42,094 bases of DNA from contig PMYN01000052.1 of the NCBI GenBank assembly GCA_003171215.1, positions 19,336 to 61,429 on the forward strand, in the 5' to 3' direction. Position 1 is the first letter of the stretch. Each line of letters starts with the position of its first letter. Made by a program: the position numbers and the translations under genes. The stretch is from Gemmatimonadota bacterium (GTDB taxonomy: Bacteria > Gemmatimonadota > Gemmatimonadetes > Gemmatimonadales > Gemmatimonadaceae). Positions 34,344 to 40,618 of this stretch are shown piece after piece. The notes under the pieces are model-generated. The model was not told where the DNA came from. It made no database searches and was given only the letters and a program-made list of their open reading frames with translations.

Positions 34344-36884
34344 GTGAGTACTGCCGCGGCTCGCGAAGAAAAACGGATCGGGAGCGGACCCGCGAAGGCG
34401 ATGCGCACGACCATCGCGCTCGCGGGCGGCAACGAGGTCTGTTTCGCCTGCCAGGTCGGACCCGACGGCGTGATCATCGGCGCGCGTCCGGTCGCGCGGG
34501 GCGACGTCAGCTGCGTGCTGGCGCTTCCCGGATTCGCGCAGCGCGGCGAGATGCTGGTGCACAACCATCCCAGCGGCGTGCTCGAGCCGTCGGGCCCCGA
34601 CCTCGAGATCGCCGCGCGGGTGCACGGCGACGGCATCGGCTTCGGCATCATCGACAATGCGGCGAGCGAGATCTACGTGGTCGTCGAAGTTCCTCGTGCG
34701 AGAGAACGGGTGGCGATCGATCCCGCGGAGATCGGCGCCCTGCTCGGGCCCGATGGGCCGGTCGCGGCTCACCTCGGGCGCTACGAAGACCGGCCAAGCC
34801 AGCGCGAGATGGCGGAGCGCATCGCGCGGCTGTATTCGCTCGGCGGCATCGGGCTGATCGAAGCGGGCACCGGCGTCGGCAAGTCGCTGGGATATCTCGT
34901 TCCCGCCCTGCGATGGGCCGCCGCGAACGAAGAGCGCACGATCGTCTCCACCAACACGATCACGCTGCAGGAACAGCTCGTCGGGAAGGACCTGCCGTTC
35001 CTCAGGGACGCGCTCACCGATCAGCCCGTGCGATTCGCGCTGCTCAAGGGATGGCGGAATTATCTCTGCCTGCAGCGGCTCGAGCAGGCACGCACCGCCG
35101 GACACACGCTCTTTTCCGACGACGCCGACGCGCAGCTCGCCGCGCTCGAGGCGTGGGCGGCGCGCACGACGGACGGCTCGACCGCCGACCTTCCCGCGCC
35201 GCCGCGCCCCGACGTGTGGGACGAAGTGGCGGCGGAGCCCGACCTGTGCACGCGCCTGCGCTGTCCGCACTTCGACCGGTGCTTCGTGTTCGCCGCGCGC
35301 CGCGTGGCCGCGCAGGCCGACGTGGTGGTGGTGAACCATCACCTGCTGATGGCCGACATCGCGGTGCGCCGCGCGTCGGGGAACTGGAGCGAGTCCGCCG
35401 TGCTTCCCGCGTACTCGCGACTCGTGATCGACGAGGGACATCACCTCGAGTCGGCGGCGTCGGCGCACCTCGGACAGACCGTCACGCGCCGCGGCCTTCA
35501 GCGGCTCTTCTCCCGCCTCGAGCGCCGCGGCAAGGGACTGCTTCCGGCGCTCGAGCGCCGCCTGGCGTCGGCCAACGATCTCCTCAGCGTCGCGAGCCTC
35601 GATCTCGTGCACGCGGGGCTCTCTCCGTCCGCCGAGGCGGCGCGGCGTCTGGGCGCACAGTTGTTCGACCTGCTCGACGAGTGGCTCAACTCGAAGACCG
35701 ATTCGCAGGTGCGCCTCACCGACGCGTTCGACGACGAGCCCATTTGGAAGGCCGGACTGGACGCAACCCTACAAGACTTGCTTCGCGAGATCGAGCTCAT
35801 CGCCGACGGCCTGCGCATGGTGCGCGAGCGCCTCGAGACCGACACGCGCCGCGCCGAGGAACTCGCGCCGCTGCTGAACGAGTTGAGCGGTGTGTCGCGG
35901 CGCCTCGCGAACGCGTCGGATGCGCTGCGCAGCGCGCTGCGGCCGGGCGTGGAGGCGAGCAAACGCGTGCGCTGGATCGAAGCCTTGGGAGGAGCCCGCG
36001 AAGGGGGTGCCGAGAGCCGCAACGTGAGCGTCGCCTCGGTGCCGCTCGATCTCGCGCCGATCCTACGCGAAGACCTGTTCCGTCGCGTCGAAACCTGCGT
36101 CGTGACGAGCGCGACGCTGGCGGTCGGCGACGGGTTCGCGTTCGTCGAGGGACGCCTCGGTCTCGACCAGGACGACGTCGAGCCCGTGACGGCCGTGCTG
36201 CCGTCGCCGTTCGATTATGCGCGGCAGGCGGTGCTCGCGATCCCGTCAGACTTTCCCGCTCCGAACGAGGACGGGCCGCTCCACTTCAGGAGAACGGTGC
36301 AGGCCGGTGCCGACCTCATCGAAGCGGCGGGCGGCGGCGTATTTCTCCTGTTCACGAGCCACCGCGACGTGCGCGAGGCCGCGCAGGTGCTGCGCGCGCT
36401 CGGAGCCGAGGGGCGCTGGCCGCTGCTCGTGCACGGCGAGGCGTCGCGCGATGTGCTGCTGCGGCGCTTTCGTGAGCAGGGAGACGCGGTGCTCGTGGGA
36501 ACGGCCTCGTTCTGGGAGGGCGTGGACGTGCCGGGACGCGCCCTGCGTGGGTTGCTGCTCTCGCGGATTCCGTTTCGCGTGCCCACGGAGCCGGTGACCG
36601 CCGCGCAGTGCGAGGCGATCGAGGCCGCGGGCGGCGACGCGTTCGCCGAGTACATGGTGCCCCATGCAGCATTGCGACTGAAGCAGGGTTTCGGCAGGCT
36701 CATCAGGACGGCGACGGACCGGGGCGCCGTGGTGCTCTGTGACCCGAGAGTGCTCCGGAAGTCGTACGGACGCGCACTGCTGAGCGGACTGCCGCCGGCG
36801 CGACGGCTGGAGGGAGCGTGGGCAACGCTCAAGGTCGAATTGTCACACTTTTACGCGGAATCCATTTCACATACTTCGGGGTAG
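34344..36884 (+). CDS. DinG/XPD-type helicase with N-terminal JAMM (RadC-like) domain
   Basis: An 846-aa fusion. Residues 20-118 form a JAB/JAMM domain: Glu31, then HNHPSGVLEPSGPD at 73-86, fitting H-x-H-P-x6-S-x2-D, the zinc motif shared with RadC. After a linker comes a superfamily-2 DinG/XPD helicase: GTGVGKS (175-181), STNTITLQEQL (202-212), and Fe-S cysteines at 242, 302, 307 and 313. The DEGH box is at 363-366. Later come VTSATL, TASFWEGVDVPG and QGFGRLIRT. DinG unwinds DNA 5'-3' and clears R-loops and G-quadruplexes. GTG 34344 gives the full reading; ATG 34401 (MRTTIALAGGNE) is a close alternative that keeps the JAMM domain. The JAMM domain could be a protease or deubiquitinase-like module; its target is unknown. 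Confidence 0.88.
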   Translation: MSTAAAREEKRIGSGPAKAMRTTIALAGGNEVCFACQVGPDGVIIGARPVARGDVSCVLALPGFAQRGEMLVHNHPSGVLEPSGPDLEIAARVHGDGIGFGIIDNAASEIYVVVEVPRARERVAIDPAEIGALLGPDGPVAAHLGRYEDRPSQREMAERIARLYSLGGIGLIEAGTGVGKSLGYLVPALRWAAANEERTIVSTNTITLQEQLVGKDLPFLRDALTDQPVRFALLKGWRNYLCLQRLEQARTAGHTLFSDDADAQLAALEAWAARTTDGSTADLPAPPRPDVWDEVAAEPDLCTRLRCPHFDRCFVFAARRVAAQADVVVVNHHLLMADIAVRRASGNWSESAVLPAYSRLVIDEGHHLESAASAHLGQTVTRRGLQRLFSRLERRGKGLLPALERRLASANDLLSVASLDLVHAGLSPSAEAARRLGAQLFDLLDEWLNSKTDSQVRLTDAFDDEPIWKAGLDATLQDLLREIELIADGLRMVRERLETDTRRAEELAPLLNELSGVSRRLANASDALRSALRPGVEASKRVRWIEALGGAREGGAESRNVSVASVPLDLAPILREDLFRRVETCVVTSATLAVGDGFAFVEGRLGLDQDDVEPVTAVLPSPFDYARQAVLAIPSDFPAPNEDGPLHFRRTVQAGADLIEAAGGGVFLLFTSHRDVREAAQVLRALGAEGRWPLLVHGEASRDVLLRRFREQGDAVLVGTASFWEGVDVPGRALRGLLLSRIPFRVPTEPVTAAQCEAIEAAGGDAFAEYMVPHAALRLKQGFGRLIRTATDRGAVVLCDPRVLRKSYGRALLSGLPPARRLEGAWATLKVELSHFYAESISHTSG

Positions 36885-36893
36885 ATTCAGGCT

Positions 36894-37508
36894 ATGGAAC
36901 GTCCGGGGAAAATCATCTGTGTGGGCCGCAACTATCGCGAGCACGCGAAGGAGCTTGGGAACGAGGTGCCGGCCGAGCCGCTCCTGTTCTTCAAGCCGCC
37001 GTCCTGCGTGATCGCGAACGGCGCCCCGATCGAGCTGCCGGCAGACGCCGGCCGCGTGGATTTCGAGGGTGAAGTTGCCGTGGTGATCGGCGCGAAGCTG
37101 ACGAAAGCGAGCGAGGCACAGTGCGCGGCGGCGGTGCGGGGCATCGTCGCCGCGAACGACGTCTCTGCTCGCGAGTGGCAGAAGAACGACGGTCAGTGGG
37201 CCCGCGCGAAGGGAACCGACACCTTTCTTCCGCTGGGAGAGGAGTCGCGGAAGCCGCACGATCTCGCGGCGCTGACCGTCGTGACGCGCGTGAACGGCGT
37301 GGAACGCCAGCGGGCGACGACGGCCGACCTCGTGTTCCCCATCCCGACGCTGCTGTCGTTCATTTCGCGATATATTACGCTGTATCCGAACGATCTGGTG
37401 CTGACAGGGACGCCGGCCGGCGTGGGGCCGCTCGCAGCAAACGATGTGGTGGAGGTGGAGATCGTGGGGCATTCGCAGGTGCGCAGCCCCGTCGTGGCTC
37501 TCTCGTGA
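36894..37508 (+). CDS. Fumarylacetoacetate hydrolase (FAH) family protein
   Basis: A 204-aa FAH-domain protein of the short FahD1/YcgM type. It begins KIICVGRNYREHAKELGNEV, typical of acylpyruvate hydrolases and oxaloacetate decarboxylases. The metal-binding acidic residues lie in VDFEGEVAVVIG (55-66). DVSAREWQKNDGQWARAKGTDTF near 90-112 and LTGTPAGVGPLAANDVVEVE near 168-187 are also hallmarks. It probably cleaves small beta-keto acids or decarboxylates oxaloacetate; the substrate cannot be told from sequence. It starts at ATG 36894, nine bp after the helicase stop. Confidence 0.88.
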   Translation: MERPGKIICVGRNYREHAKELGNEVPAEPLLFFKPPSCVIANGAPIELPADAGRVDFEGEVAVVIGAKLTKASEAQCAAAVRGIVAANDVSAREWQKNDGQWARAKGTDTFLPLGEESRKPHDLAALTVVTRVNGVERQRATTADLVFPIPTLLSFISRYITLYPNDLVLTGTPAGVGPLAANDVVEVEIVGHSQVRSPVVALS

Positions 37509-38525: not shown

Positions 38526-39161
38526 TCAGCCGTCGCTGCCGTCCGCCCTCTGCCGTCCGCCGTCTGTCGTCCTAAACACCCCCGCCAGCACGCCGAGCAC
38601 GACGTAGTCATCGCCCTGGCCGAGTTCGAAGTCCTCGCCCTGACCGGGTGCCGCGAGGTGCAGGGTGGCGCCCCTGCGCGTCATCGCGCGTACGACCACC
38701 ACGTTCGCCGCGCGCACGATCACGACGTCACCGTCCTTCGCGCGTGACGACGGGTGCACGAGCACGAGGTCGCCGAGCCTCACGCCGTGCGCGGGAGCGG
38801 CTTCGCGCGTGGCGCGCACGAGAAACGCATCGTCCGCCGGCACGAGCCGCCGGTCGAGCGTGATGTGGTCTTCCGTTCGCAGCTCCGCGTGTCCGGCTTC
38901 CGCGCGCATCACGGGAACGGGGATCGTGCCGGCCCCGCCGGCGAACCCCACGATGGTCACGCCGCGCGAGCGGCCGGCCTCGCGTTTCACGTATCCCTTC
39001 TTCTCGAGCGACGCGAGAAGGTCGGCGACCGATTTTGTGGATGGAATCTTCAGCTGCTTCGCAATCTCGCGCACGCTCGGCTGGAACGTGTGCTCCGAGA
39101 GGAAGTCGAGCAGGAAGTGGTAGACCTGCTGCTCGACCGGCGAGAGCGGGGCGCGCGTCAC
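38526..39161 (-). CDS. LexA-like repressor lacking the self-cleavage dyad
   Basis: A 211-aa LexA-family protein. The N-terminal winged helix matches LexA well (PSVREIAKQLKIPSTKSVAD at 28-47, LEKKGYVKREAGRSRGV at 52-68). The C-terminal S24 fold keeps the Ala89-Gly90 cleavage dipeptide in VMRAEAGHAEL. However, the catalytic Ser aligns with Ala121 (FLVRATREAAPAHG at 113-126), and the Lys aligns with Arg158 (VVVVRAM). It should bind DNA but not cleave itself after RecA activation. GTG 39161 overlaps the gltX stop as GTGA. The last 14 residues, with TTDGGRQRADGSDG, are encoded by spacer repeats. A regular LexA may exist elsewhere. The alignment was done by eye without gaps. Confidence 0.82.
   Translation of the reverse strand: MTRAPLSPVEQQVYHFLLDFLSEHTFQPSVREIAKQLKIPSTKSVADLLASLEKKGYVKREAGRSRGVTIVGFAGGAGTIPVPVMRAEAGHAELRTEDHITLDRRLVPADDAFLVRATREAAPAHGVRLGDLVLVHPSSRAKDGDVVIVRAANVVVVRAMTRRGATLHLAAPGQGEDFELGQGDDYVVLGVLAGVFRTTDGGRQRADGSDG
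38531..38571. repeat. CCGTCTGC-type repeat at the end of the LexA-like gene
   Basis: Units ctgccgtccgcc, ctctgccgtccgcc and gtctgtcgtcc run across the 3' end of the LexA-like gene and are translated as its tail. The array resembles that at 40761-40802. Confidence 0.55.
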
Positions 39162-40618
39162 GTGCTGAGCGCCGCCGCCTCTTTCAGGCGTTTCACCGAG
39201 ACGTCGCGCCCGAGCTGCACGAGCACGTCGAAGATGCCCGGGCTGACCGTGCTGGCGGTGAGCGCGATGCGCATCGGCTGGAAGACCTTGCCGGCCGCGA
39301 CGCCATGCCGCTCGGCGACCGCGCGCACGGCCGGCTCCATCGCTTCCGCGGTCCAGTCGGTGAGCGCTTCGAGCGCAGACGTGGCGTCGGTGAGCAGCGC
39401 CTTCGTCACCGCCGCGTCTTTGCGCAGATGCGCGTCGATGAGTGCCTGGTCGATCACGAACGGAGGCGGCGCCATGGTCGTCGTCGTGGTCGTGAAATAC
39501 GGTTTCGCGAGCCGCGCGAGATCGCTGAGCGTCCGGCAGCGTTCCTTCACGAAATCGAGGATCTTGTAGAACTCGGGTGACGTCGCAAACGGATCGCCAC
39601 TCTTGAACAGGCCTTCCTGCACGAACGTCGGCGCCGCGAGCGGAGCGAGCTCCGCCGCGGGAAGCCGCGAGAGATGCTGCCCGTTCATCCACTCGAGCTT
39701 CTTGGTGTCGAACACCGCCGCCTTCTTCAGCAGCCCCTTCTCGGAGAAGAGCTCGACCATCTCGTCCATCGACATCACTTCGCGATCGCCTCCCGGACTC
39801 CAGCCGAGCAACACGAGGAAATTGTTCATCGCCTGCGGGAGGATGCCGAGGTGCTGATAGTCGCCTACGGCGGTCGCGCCGTGCCGCTTGGAAAGCTTCT
39901 TGCCGTCGAGCCCGTGGATCATCGGGAAGTGCGCGAAGCGCGGCAGCTCCGCCCCGAGCGCGCGGTAGAGCAGGATCTGCTTGGGCGTGTTCGAGATGTG
40001 GTCGTCGCCGCGCATGACGTGCGTGATGCGCATCGCGATGTCGTCGGAGACGACGGCCATGTTGTAGATCGGCGTGCCGTCCGAGCGGAGGATGACGAAA
40101 TCCTCGATGTCCTTGCCGGGAAAGCTGATCGTCTCGTGGACGATGTCGTCCCACGACGTGTCGCCCACGGGCACGCGAAAGCGAATGACGAACGGCGTTC
40201 CCGCCGCCACGCGCCGCTGCACTTCGTCCGGCGCGAGGCGATCGCAGCGGCGGTCGTACTTGAACGCATCCTTGCTGGCCGCGGCGAGCTTGCGGCGCTG
40301 GTCGAGCTCCTCGGGCGTGCAGAAGCAGCGGTACGCGGCGCCCGCGTCGAGCATCCGCCGCGCGTCGGCCTGGTGCCGCCCGAGATTCGCACCCTGATAG
40401 ACGACCTCTTCATCCCAGTTGAGGCCGAGCCAGTTCAGCCCCTCGAAGATCGCGCGCGTGGATTCGTCGGTGCTGCGCGCCTTGTCGGTGTCTTCGATGC
40501 GCAGCAGGAACTGGCCGCCGTGCTCGCGGGCGTAGAGCCAGTTGAAGAGCGCGGTGCGGGCGCCGCCGACGTGGAGGTAACCGGTGGGGCTGGGGGCAAA
40601 TCGTACTCTGACGGACAC
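39158..40618 (-). CDS. gltX: Glutamyl-tRNA synthetase
   Basis: GltX charges tRNA-Glu and, if GatCAB is present, mis-charges tRNA-Gln for later amidation. The 486-aa class I enzyme has the HIGH-type motif PSPTGYLHVGGA at 9-20, the zinc-binding CFCTPEE with later YDRRC, LRSDGTPIYNMAVVSDDI, and KLSKRHGATAV near 255. The C-terminal anticodon-binding helical domain is present. An odd run of six Thr followed by MAPPPF lies near 395-405, where the family is variable. The start is GTG 40616-40618. It is translationally coupled to the LexA-like gene downstream. No clear Shine-Dalgarno is visible upstream, where spacer repeats begin. Confidence 0.96.
   Translation of the reverse strand: MSVRVRFAPSPTGYLHVGGARTALFNWLYAREHGGQFLLRIEDTDKARSTDESTRAIFEGLNWLGLNWDEEVVYQGANLGRHQADARRMLDAGAAYRCFCTPEELDQRRKLAAASKDAFKYDRRCDRLAPDEVQRRVAAGTPFVIRFRVPVGDTSWDDIVHETISFPGKDIEDFVILRSDGTPIYNMAVVSDDIAMRITHVMRGDDHISNTPKQILLYRALGAELPRFAHFPMIHGLDGKKLSKRHGATAVGDYQHLGILPQAMNNFLVLLGWSPGGDREVMSMDEMVELFSEKGLLKKAAVFDTKKLEWMNGQHLSRLPAAELAPLAAPTFVQEGLFKSGDPFATSPEFYKILDFVKERCRTLSDLARLAKPYFTTTTTTMAPPPFVIDQALIDAHLRKDAAVTKALLTDATSALEALTDWTAEAMEPAVRAVAERHGVAAGKVFQPMRIALTASTVSPGIFDVLVQLGRDVSVKRLKEAAALST

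Follow-up and report, generated by a model that had tools for sequence, protein, structure and literature searches.

The gene at 34344-36884 on the forward strand of the window (the whole 42,094-nucleotide stretch of Gemmatimonadota DNA that was analysed) encodes, by its sequence features, a RadC-like DinG. One open frame spans these positions and translates into a single 846-aa protein, in which a JAMM domain is joined to an Fe-S helicase, and this fusion is real and strongly conserved. The coordinates and residues named in the initial annotation proved correct on translation, the N-terminal residues reading E31, H73-N74-H75-P76-S77-G78, S83 and D86. The gene and its parts are as follows.

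34344..36884, + strand: RadC-like DinG gene, 846 aa, JAMM domain plus Fe-S SF2 helicase; GTG start, stop within the coordinates
34374..34697, + strand: RadC-clade JAMM/MPN domain, residues ~11-118, from PF04002, conservation, predicted fold and PDB matches
34434..34436, + strand: codon of the predicted catalytic Glu31, from the reading frame and family conservation
34560..34601, + strand: JAMM core HNHPSGVLEPSGPD with H73, H75, S83 and D86, from the reading frame and conservation
34704..34793, + strand: linker, residues 121-150, retained in members without the JAMM domain
34794..36857, + strand: DinG/YoaA-type helicase, residues ~151-838, with Walker A, Fe-S cysteines, DEGH and Helicase_C_2

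Inspection of the N-terminal sequence gave a complete EX(n)HxHX7SXXD motif (E31...H73-N-H75-x7-S83-xx-D86), which lies within a predicted MPN fold. Against Pfam, the N-terminal piece scored 23.0 bits for the RadC-like JAB family PF04002 (cut-off 22.1), falling to 19.9 bits when the whole protein was the query. This assignment, weak from one sequence, became firm once relatives were added: all 51 sequences of an alignment of Gemmatimonadota and spirochaete members matched PF04002, a profile of the domain family found the RadC structure 2QLC at 2.7e-8, and hhalign paired it with standalone Gemmatimonadota RadC at 97.1% and 7e-11. The resemblance to RadC noted in the initial annotation is therefore upheld. 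The domain shares the HNHPSG..PS..D core of standalone RadC (PF04002, 2QLC) but is missing the HPREVF stretch and the late D-H, both invariant in the aligned Gemmatimonadota RadC proteins, and the NCBIfam models for full-length RadC were not reached (NF000642/TIGR00608; 18.5 bits against a cut-off of 180, and 15.3 against 133.85). The absence of HPREVF and the late D-H suggests that the fused domain forms a distinct branch within the RadC clade.

Structure prediction gave a mean pLDDT of 86.2 for the full-length protein and 95.5 for the JAMM domain modelled alone, which supports the JAMM fold expected from the motif. RadC 2QLC was the first-ranked PDB match to the domain model in Foldseek as well as the top match by profile, and VIA-align returned Z scores of 10.9 for BubCD, 10.1 for Caldiarchaeum Rpn11 and 9.9 for PfJAMM1 over model residues 1-105, which are protein residues 11-115, so that the nearest solved folds by this method are JAMM peptidases. 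The likeness to the JAMM/MPN+ isopeptidases (PfJAMM1, CsRpn11, AfJAMM and BubCD) extends to the fold (Z 8-11) and the full motif, but identity is 11-20%, the fused domain has HNHP rather than HS/THP, and no known ubiquitin-like partner system is tied to it. The domain profile also gave a weak match to AfJAMM in which the HxH and SxxD columns lined up. PMC300881 describes zinc binding by AfJAMM, which has the same motif, and from the complete motif and fold we infer that the site in the fusion would also bind zinc.

The residues of this putative zinc site are strongly conserved. E31, H73, N74, H75, P76, S83 and D86 were invariant among 25 diverse Gemmatimonadota and remained so among 51 sequences with spirochaetes included. 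The complete zinc motif of the initial annotation (E-H-H-S-D) was retained in 196 of 200 recovered domains and S83 in 199, a set drawn from two collections that includes near-duplicates and does not represent 200 independent cases. One of the four exceptions (L092) merely lacks the beginning of the domain, and the other three (L080, L267 and L268) have KHRLE, SIHSE and RLQSE in place of EHHSD with the helicase motifs intact. Among close relatives, dN/dS was 0.08-0.29 for the JAMM domain and 0.07-0.20 for the helicase, and this similarity indicates that the domain is maintained by selection. On these sequence comparisons, selection preserves the predicted zinc site wherever it occurs, and the site is separable from the helicase.

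The helicase half carries a Walker A motif (GTGVGKS, residues 175-181), a DEAH-type box (DEGH, 363-366) and Fe-S cysteines at 242, 302, 307 and 313. It matched Helicase_C_2 (PF13307) at 1.4e-42 and, in Foldseek, E. coli DinG (6FWR) at E 3e-40, as expected of a DinG/XPD Fe-S helicase. An intact Fe-S helicase, as first annotated, is thus well founded, but the four cysteines do not hold across the family: only 302, 307 and 313 were invariant in 25 members, and the first, C242 (window 35067-35069), is Ser in 13 of them. The best NCBIfam match was YoaA at 560.3 bits, followed by DinG, all under the equivalog cut-offs (680 bits for YoaA sensu stricto, NF053712). The C-terminal ~700 residues thus form a YoaA/DinG-type Fe-S DNA helicase, which by analogy with these families would have 5'-3' polarity and the substrates of its relatives.

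The architecture has a name already. Cheng 2025 (PMC11981726) called it 'RadC-like DinG', with a type protein from Desulfuromonas soudanensis, and modelled its zinc centre from E, H, H and D residues; that work also described a YoaA-like architecture and the absence of HolC, and stated that no research had been done on the subgroup. Our protein agrees in having the N-terminal RadC-like domain, conserved E/H/H/D residues of a predicted zinc centre, and an Fe-S helicase with YoaA as its top NCBIfam match. HolC (chi) was found in 0 of 61 Gemmatimonadota genomes, the source genome among them, and a YoaA acting with a HolC partner was rejected on this basis. The Gemmatimonadota differ in that the phylum is unmentioned in the main text of PMC11981726 and in that about half of the sampled members have Ser for the first Fe-S cysteine. 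A literature search for the subgroup name returned the Cheng paper alone. Aravind and colleagues (PMC5512222) had discussed RadC fused to DinG/RAD3 helicases before it. The initial annotation had proposed a new kind of repair enzyme, and this claim of novelty fails, the fusion being a member of a named subgroup; the published description covers the architecture and not the role. The contrast it drew with Firmicute DinG proteins bearing an exonuclease was sound. In ExoDinG (for example Staphylococcus aureus DinG, 9II8; Foldseek E 6e-31) a catalytic domain likewise precedes an SF2 XPD-like helicase, but it is an exonuclease domain where the fusion has JAMM, in line with PMC11981726 and the NCBIfam names. 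What is new here is the phylum-scale distribution, the inferred domain and site losses, the coexistence with RadC, and the absence of Pup ligase and HolC in the sampled Gemmatimonadota.

The initial annotation had also raised the question of how widespread the fusion is. A protein search of 298 Gemmatimonadota genomes detected homologues in 249 of them, and among the matches listed most cover residues ~10-840, including those of a divergent family (f5). In an independent genome collection the JAMM motif was present in 80/80 loci and shared one open frame with the helicase Walker A in 79; the remaining locus (L156) is apparently frame-broken. In the Spirochaetota the domain heads a long open frame in 56-58 of 100 genomes (about 57 with the fusion), a count taken from the results table with the fusion inferred from frame length where the sequence was not retrieved. 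Two fused loci, L155 with the label Vicinamibacteraceae and L138 with the label Planctomycetota, fell within the Gemmatimonadota on the helicase tree and lie on contigs with a Gemmatimonadota-type fusion and Gemmatimonadota-type neighbours. They are probably misassigned bins and were left out of the phylum tally. That a RadC fragment was joined to a helicase through an error of assembly or gene prediction, or by chance, was rejected as exceedingly improbable given the same one-frame architecture in hundreds of genomes of two phyla and in a published subgroup.

Some members have lost the domain altogether (L044-L051, L269 and L270) while retaining the helicase. A tree built from 55 helicase sequences requires four changes to account for these, at least three of which cannot be avoided because the branches concerned are well supported; two changes are required for the zinc-dead members (L080, L267 and L268). 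Taking the JAMM domain as ancestral, we infer at least three whole-domain losses and two losses of the zinc site. The linker that follows the domain persists in JAMM-less members of family f1, and L044 and the zinc-dead proteins retain Walker A, DEAH/DEGH and the Cys triplet, the motifs being intact where checked. Losses of site or domain with the helicase left in place are as expected of separable accessory JAMM catalysis. These sequence comparisons make the JAMM domain look like an accessory that selection maintains but that the helicase can do without, and its loss in several lineages suggests that its activity is not essential to the core role of the helicase.

The neighbourhood of the fusion in Gemmatimonadota is conserved and chromosomal. 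Two flanking genes recur among the 80 loci, where absences often coincide with contig ends:

32930..34336, + strand: upstream neighbour, unannotated, with no Pfam match; adjoins the fusion in 68/80 loci
36894..37508, + strand: downstream neighbour of the FAA_hydrolase family; near the fusion in 53/80 loci

A search of plasmids with the domain gave no match, and viral contigs gave only weak, short RadC-like matches (28-60% identity, E >= 6e-7). Together with the chromosomal synteny, these results led us to reject an origin in a mobile element or phage, and the tie to mobile elements suggested in the initial annotation was not borne out. An anti-phage system was also rejected, as PADLOC matches were confined to the helicase half, nearly all of them to type IV CRISPR DinG models. 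A separate RadC coexists with the fusion in most Gemmatimonadota genomes and was found in 15 of 17 genus relatives searched. In the window's own assembly (G000, with the fusion on contig C33) no standalone RadC was found beyond the fusion, and in an assembly of 162 contigs this may reflect either loss or a gap.

Further along the window, a LexA-like protein lies at ~38526-39160 on the reverse strand within the ORF 38526-40154 (LexA_DNA_bind 4.8e-14, Peptidase_S24 1.6e-6). The S24 region of LexA usually contains GDSM and the lysine of VxVKR. Here the corresponding sequences are 'FLVRATREAAPAHGV' and 'NVVVVRAMTRR', and because both elements are replaced the Ser-Lys dyad looks to have been lost. 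A better-scoring LexA domain is found elsewhere in the source genome (G000:C50).

What might the JAMM domain do on such a helicase? Sequence and prediction establish its identity, fold, motif, conservation and dispensability; what follows from them for catalysis, substrate and coupling to unwinding is a proposal. Tethered to the helicase, the domain would act on something on the DNA being unwound, and the single likeliest chemistry would be hydrolytic cleavage of a DNA-associated protein at a peptide or isopeptide bond. On the strength of sequence and model we give an accessory zinc (iso)peptidase with DNA-bound protein as its substrate a little less than an even chance. It is favoured over a nuclease because the full JAMM catalytic set, including S83, is retained and the nearest folds are peptidases, and the preference is a slight one because no tag system was found and the domain sits in a position equivalent to that of nuclease domains. 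Domain loss in several lineages also weighs against it, as does the published argument on the ubiquitin-tail groove given below. The protease or isopeptidase put forward in the initial annotation is thereby a candidate. Removal of a Pup-type tag was rejected, since Pup ligase was found in 0 of 61 Gemmatimonadota genomes; of the ubiquitin-like fold families looked for in the host genome, ThiS/MoaD alone turned up, in two copies. A narrower version, in which a tag-independent zinc protease would remove proteins, such as one that is stalled or covalently trapped, from DNA during unwinding, we regard as doubtful.

Perhaps the RadC-like JAMM domain instead cuts or otherwise processes a nucleic acid strand during unwinding, as the equivalent of the ExoDinG exonuclease. 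We know of no JAMM protein that cuts phosphodiester bonds, and the nearest folds are JAMM peptidases, so that we consider this a serious contender but somewhat unlikely. It would need no ubiquitin-like tag, in keeping with the missing Pup ligase, and ExoDinG and EndoDinG carry their nuclease domains in the same N-terminal place, although the DALI search by Cheng returned no nuclease for the RadC-like domain (PMC11981726). Aravind and colleagues pointed out that RadC JABs occupy the place where other DinG proteins have nucleases, and argued that JABs of the RadC clade have no groove to take a ubiquitin tail (PMC5512222). Because RadC is found fused with HhH and DinG, they proposed that it processes nucleic acids. 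The three zinc-dead members, which keep the domain with its zinc ligands mostly or wholly gone, and the loss of the domain elsewhere while the helicase stays, could also point to a module that chiefly binds or regulates, docking a partner, ssDNA or a nucleotide, with hydrolysis secondary. E31 and S83 are needed for JAMM catalysis and not for the fold. With every catalytic residue retained in nearly all recovered domains, such a chiefly binding role seems to us improbable.

RadC is very widespread in bacteria and there is no agreement on its function. A RadC-type JAMM domain tethered to a helicase with guessable substrates gives a way into the question of what RadC domains cleave, and the JAMM-less and zinc-dead lineages beside intact ones provide natural controls. 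If such removal of proteins from DNA were true, this would be a bacterial helicase-protease in a single polypeptide, alongside a separate RadC, in two phyla.
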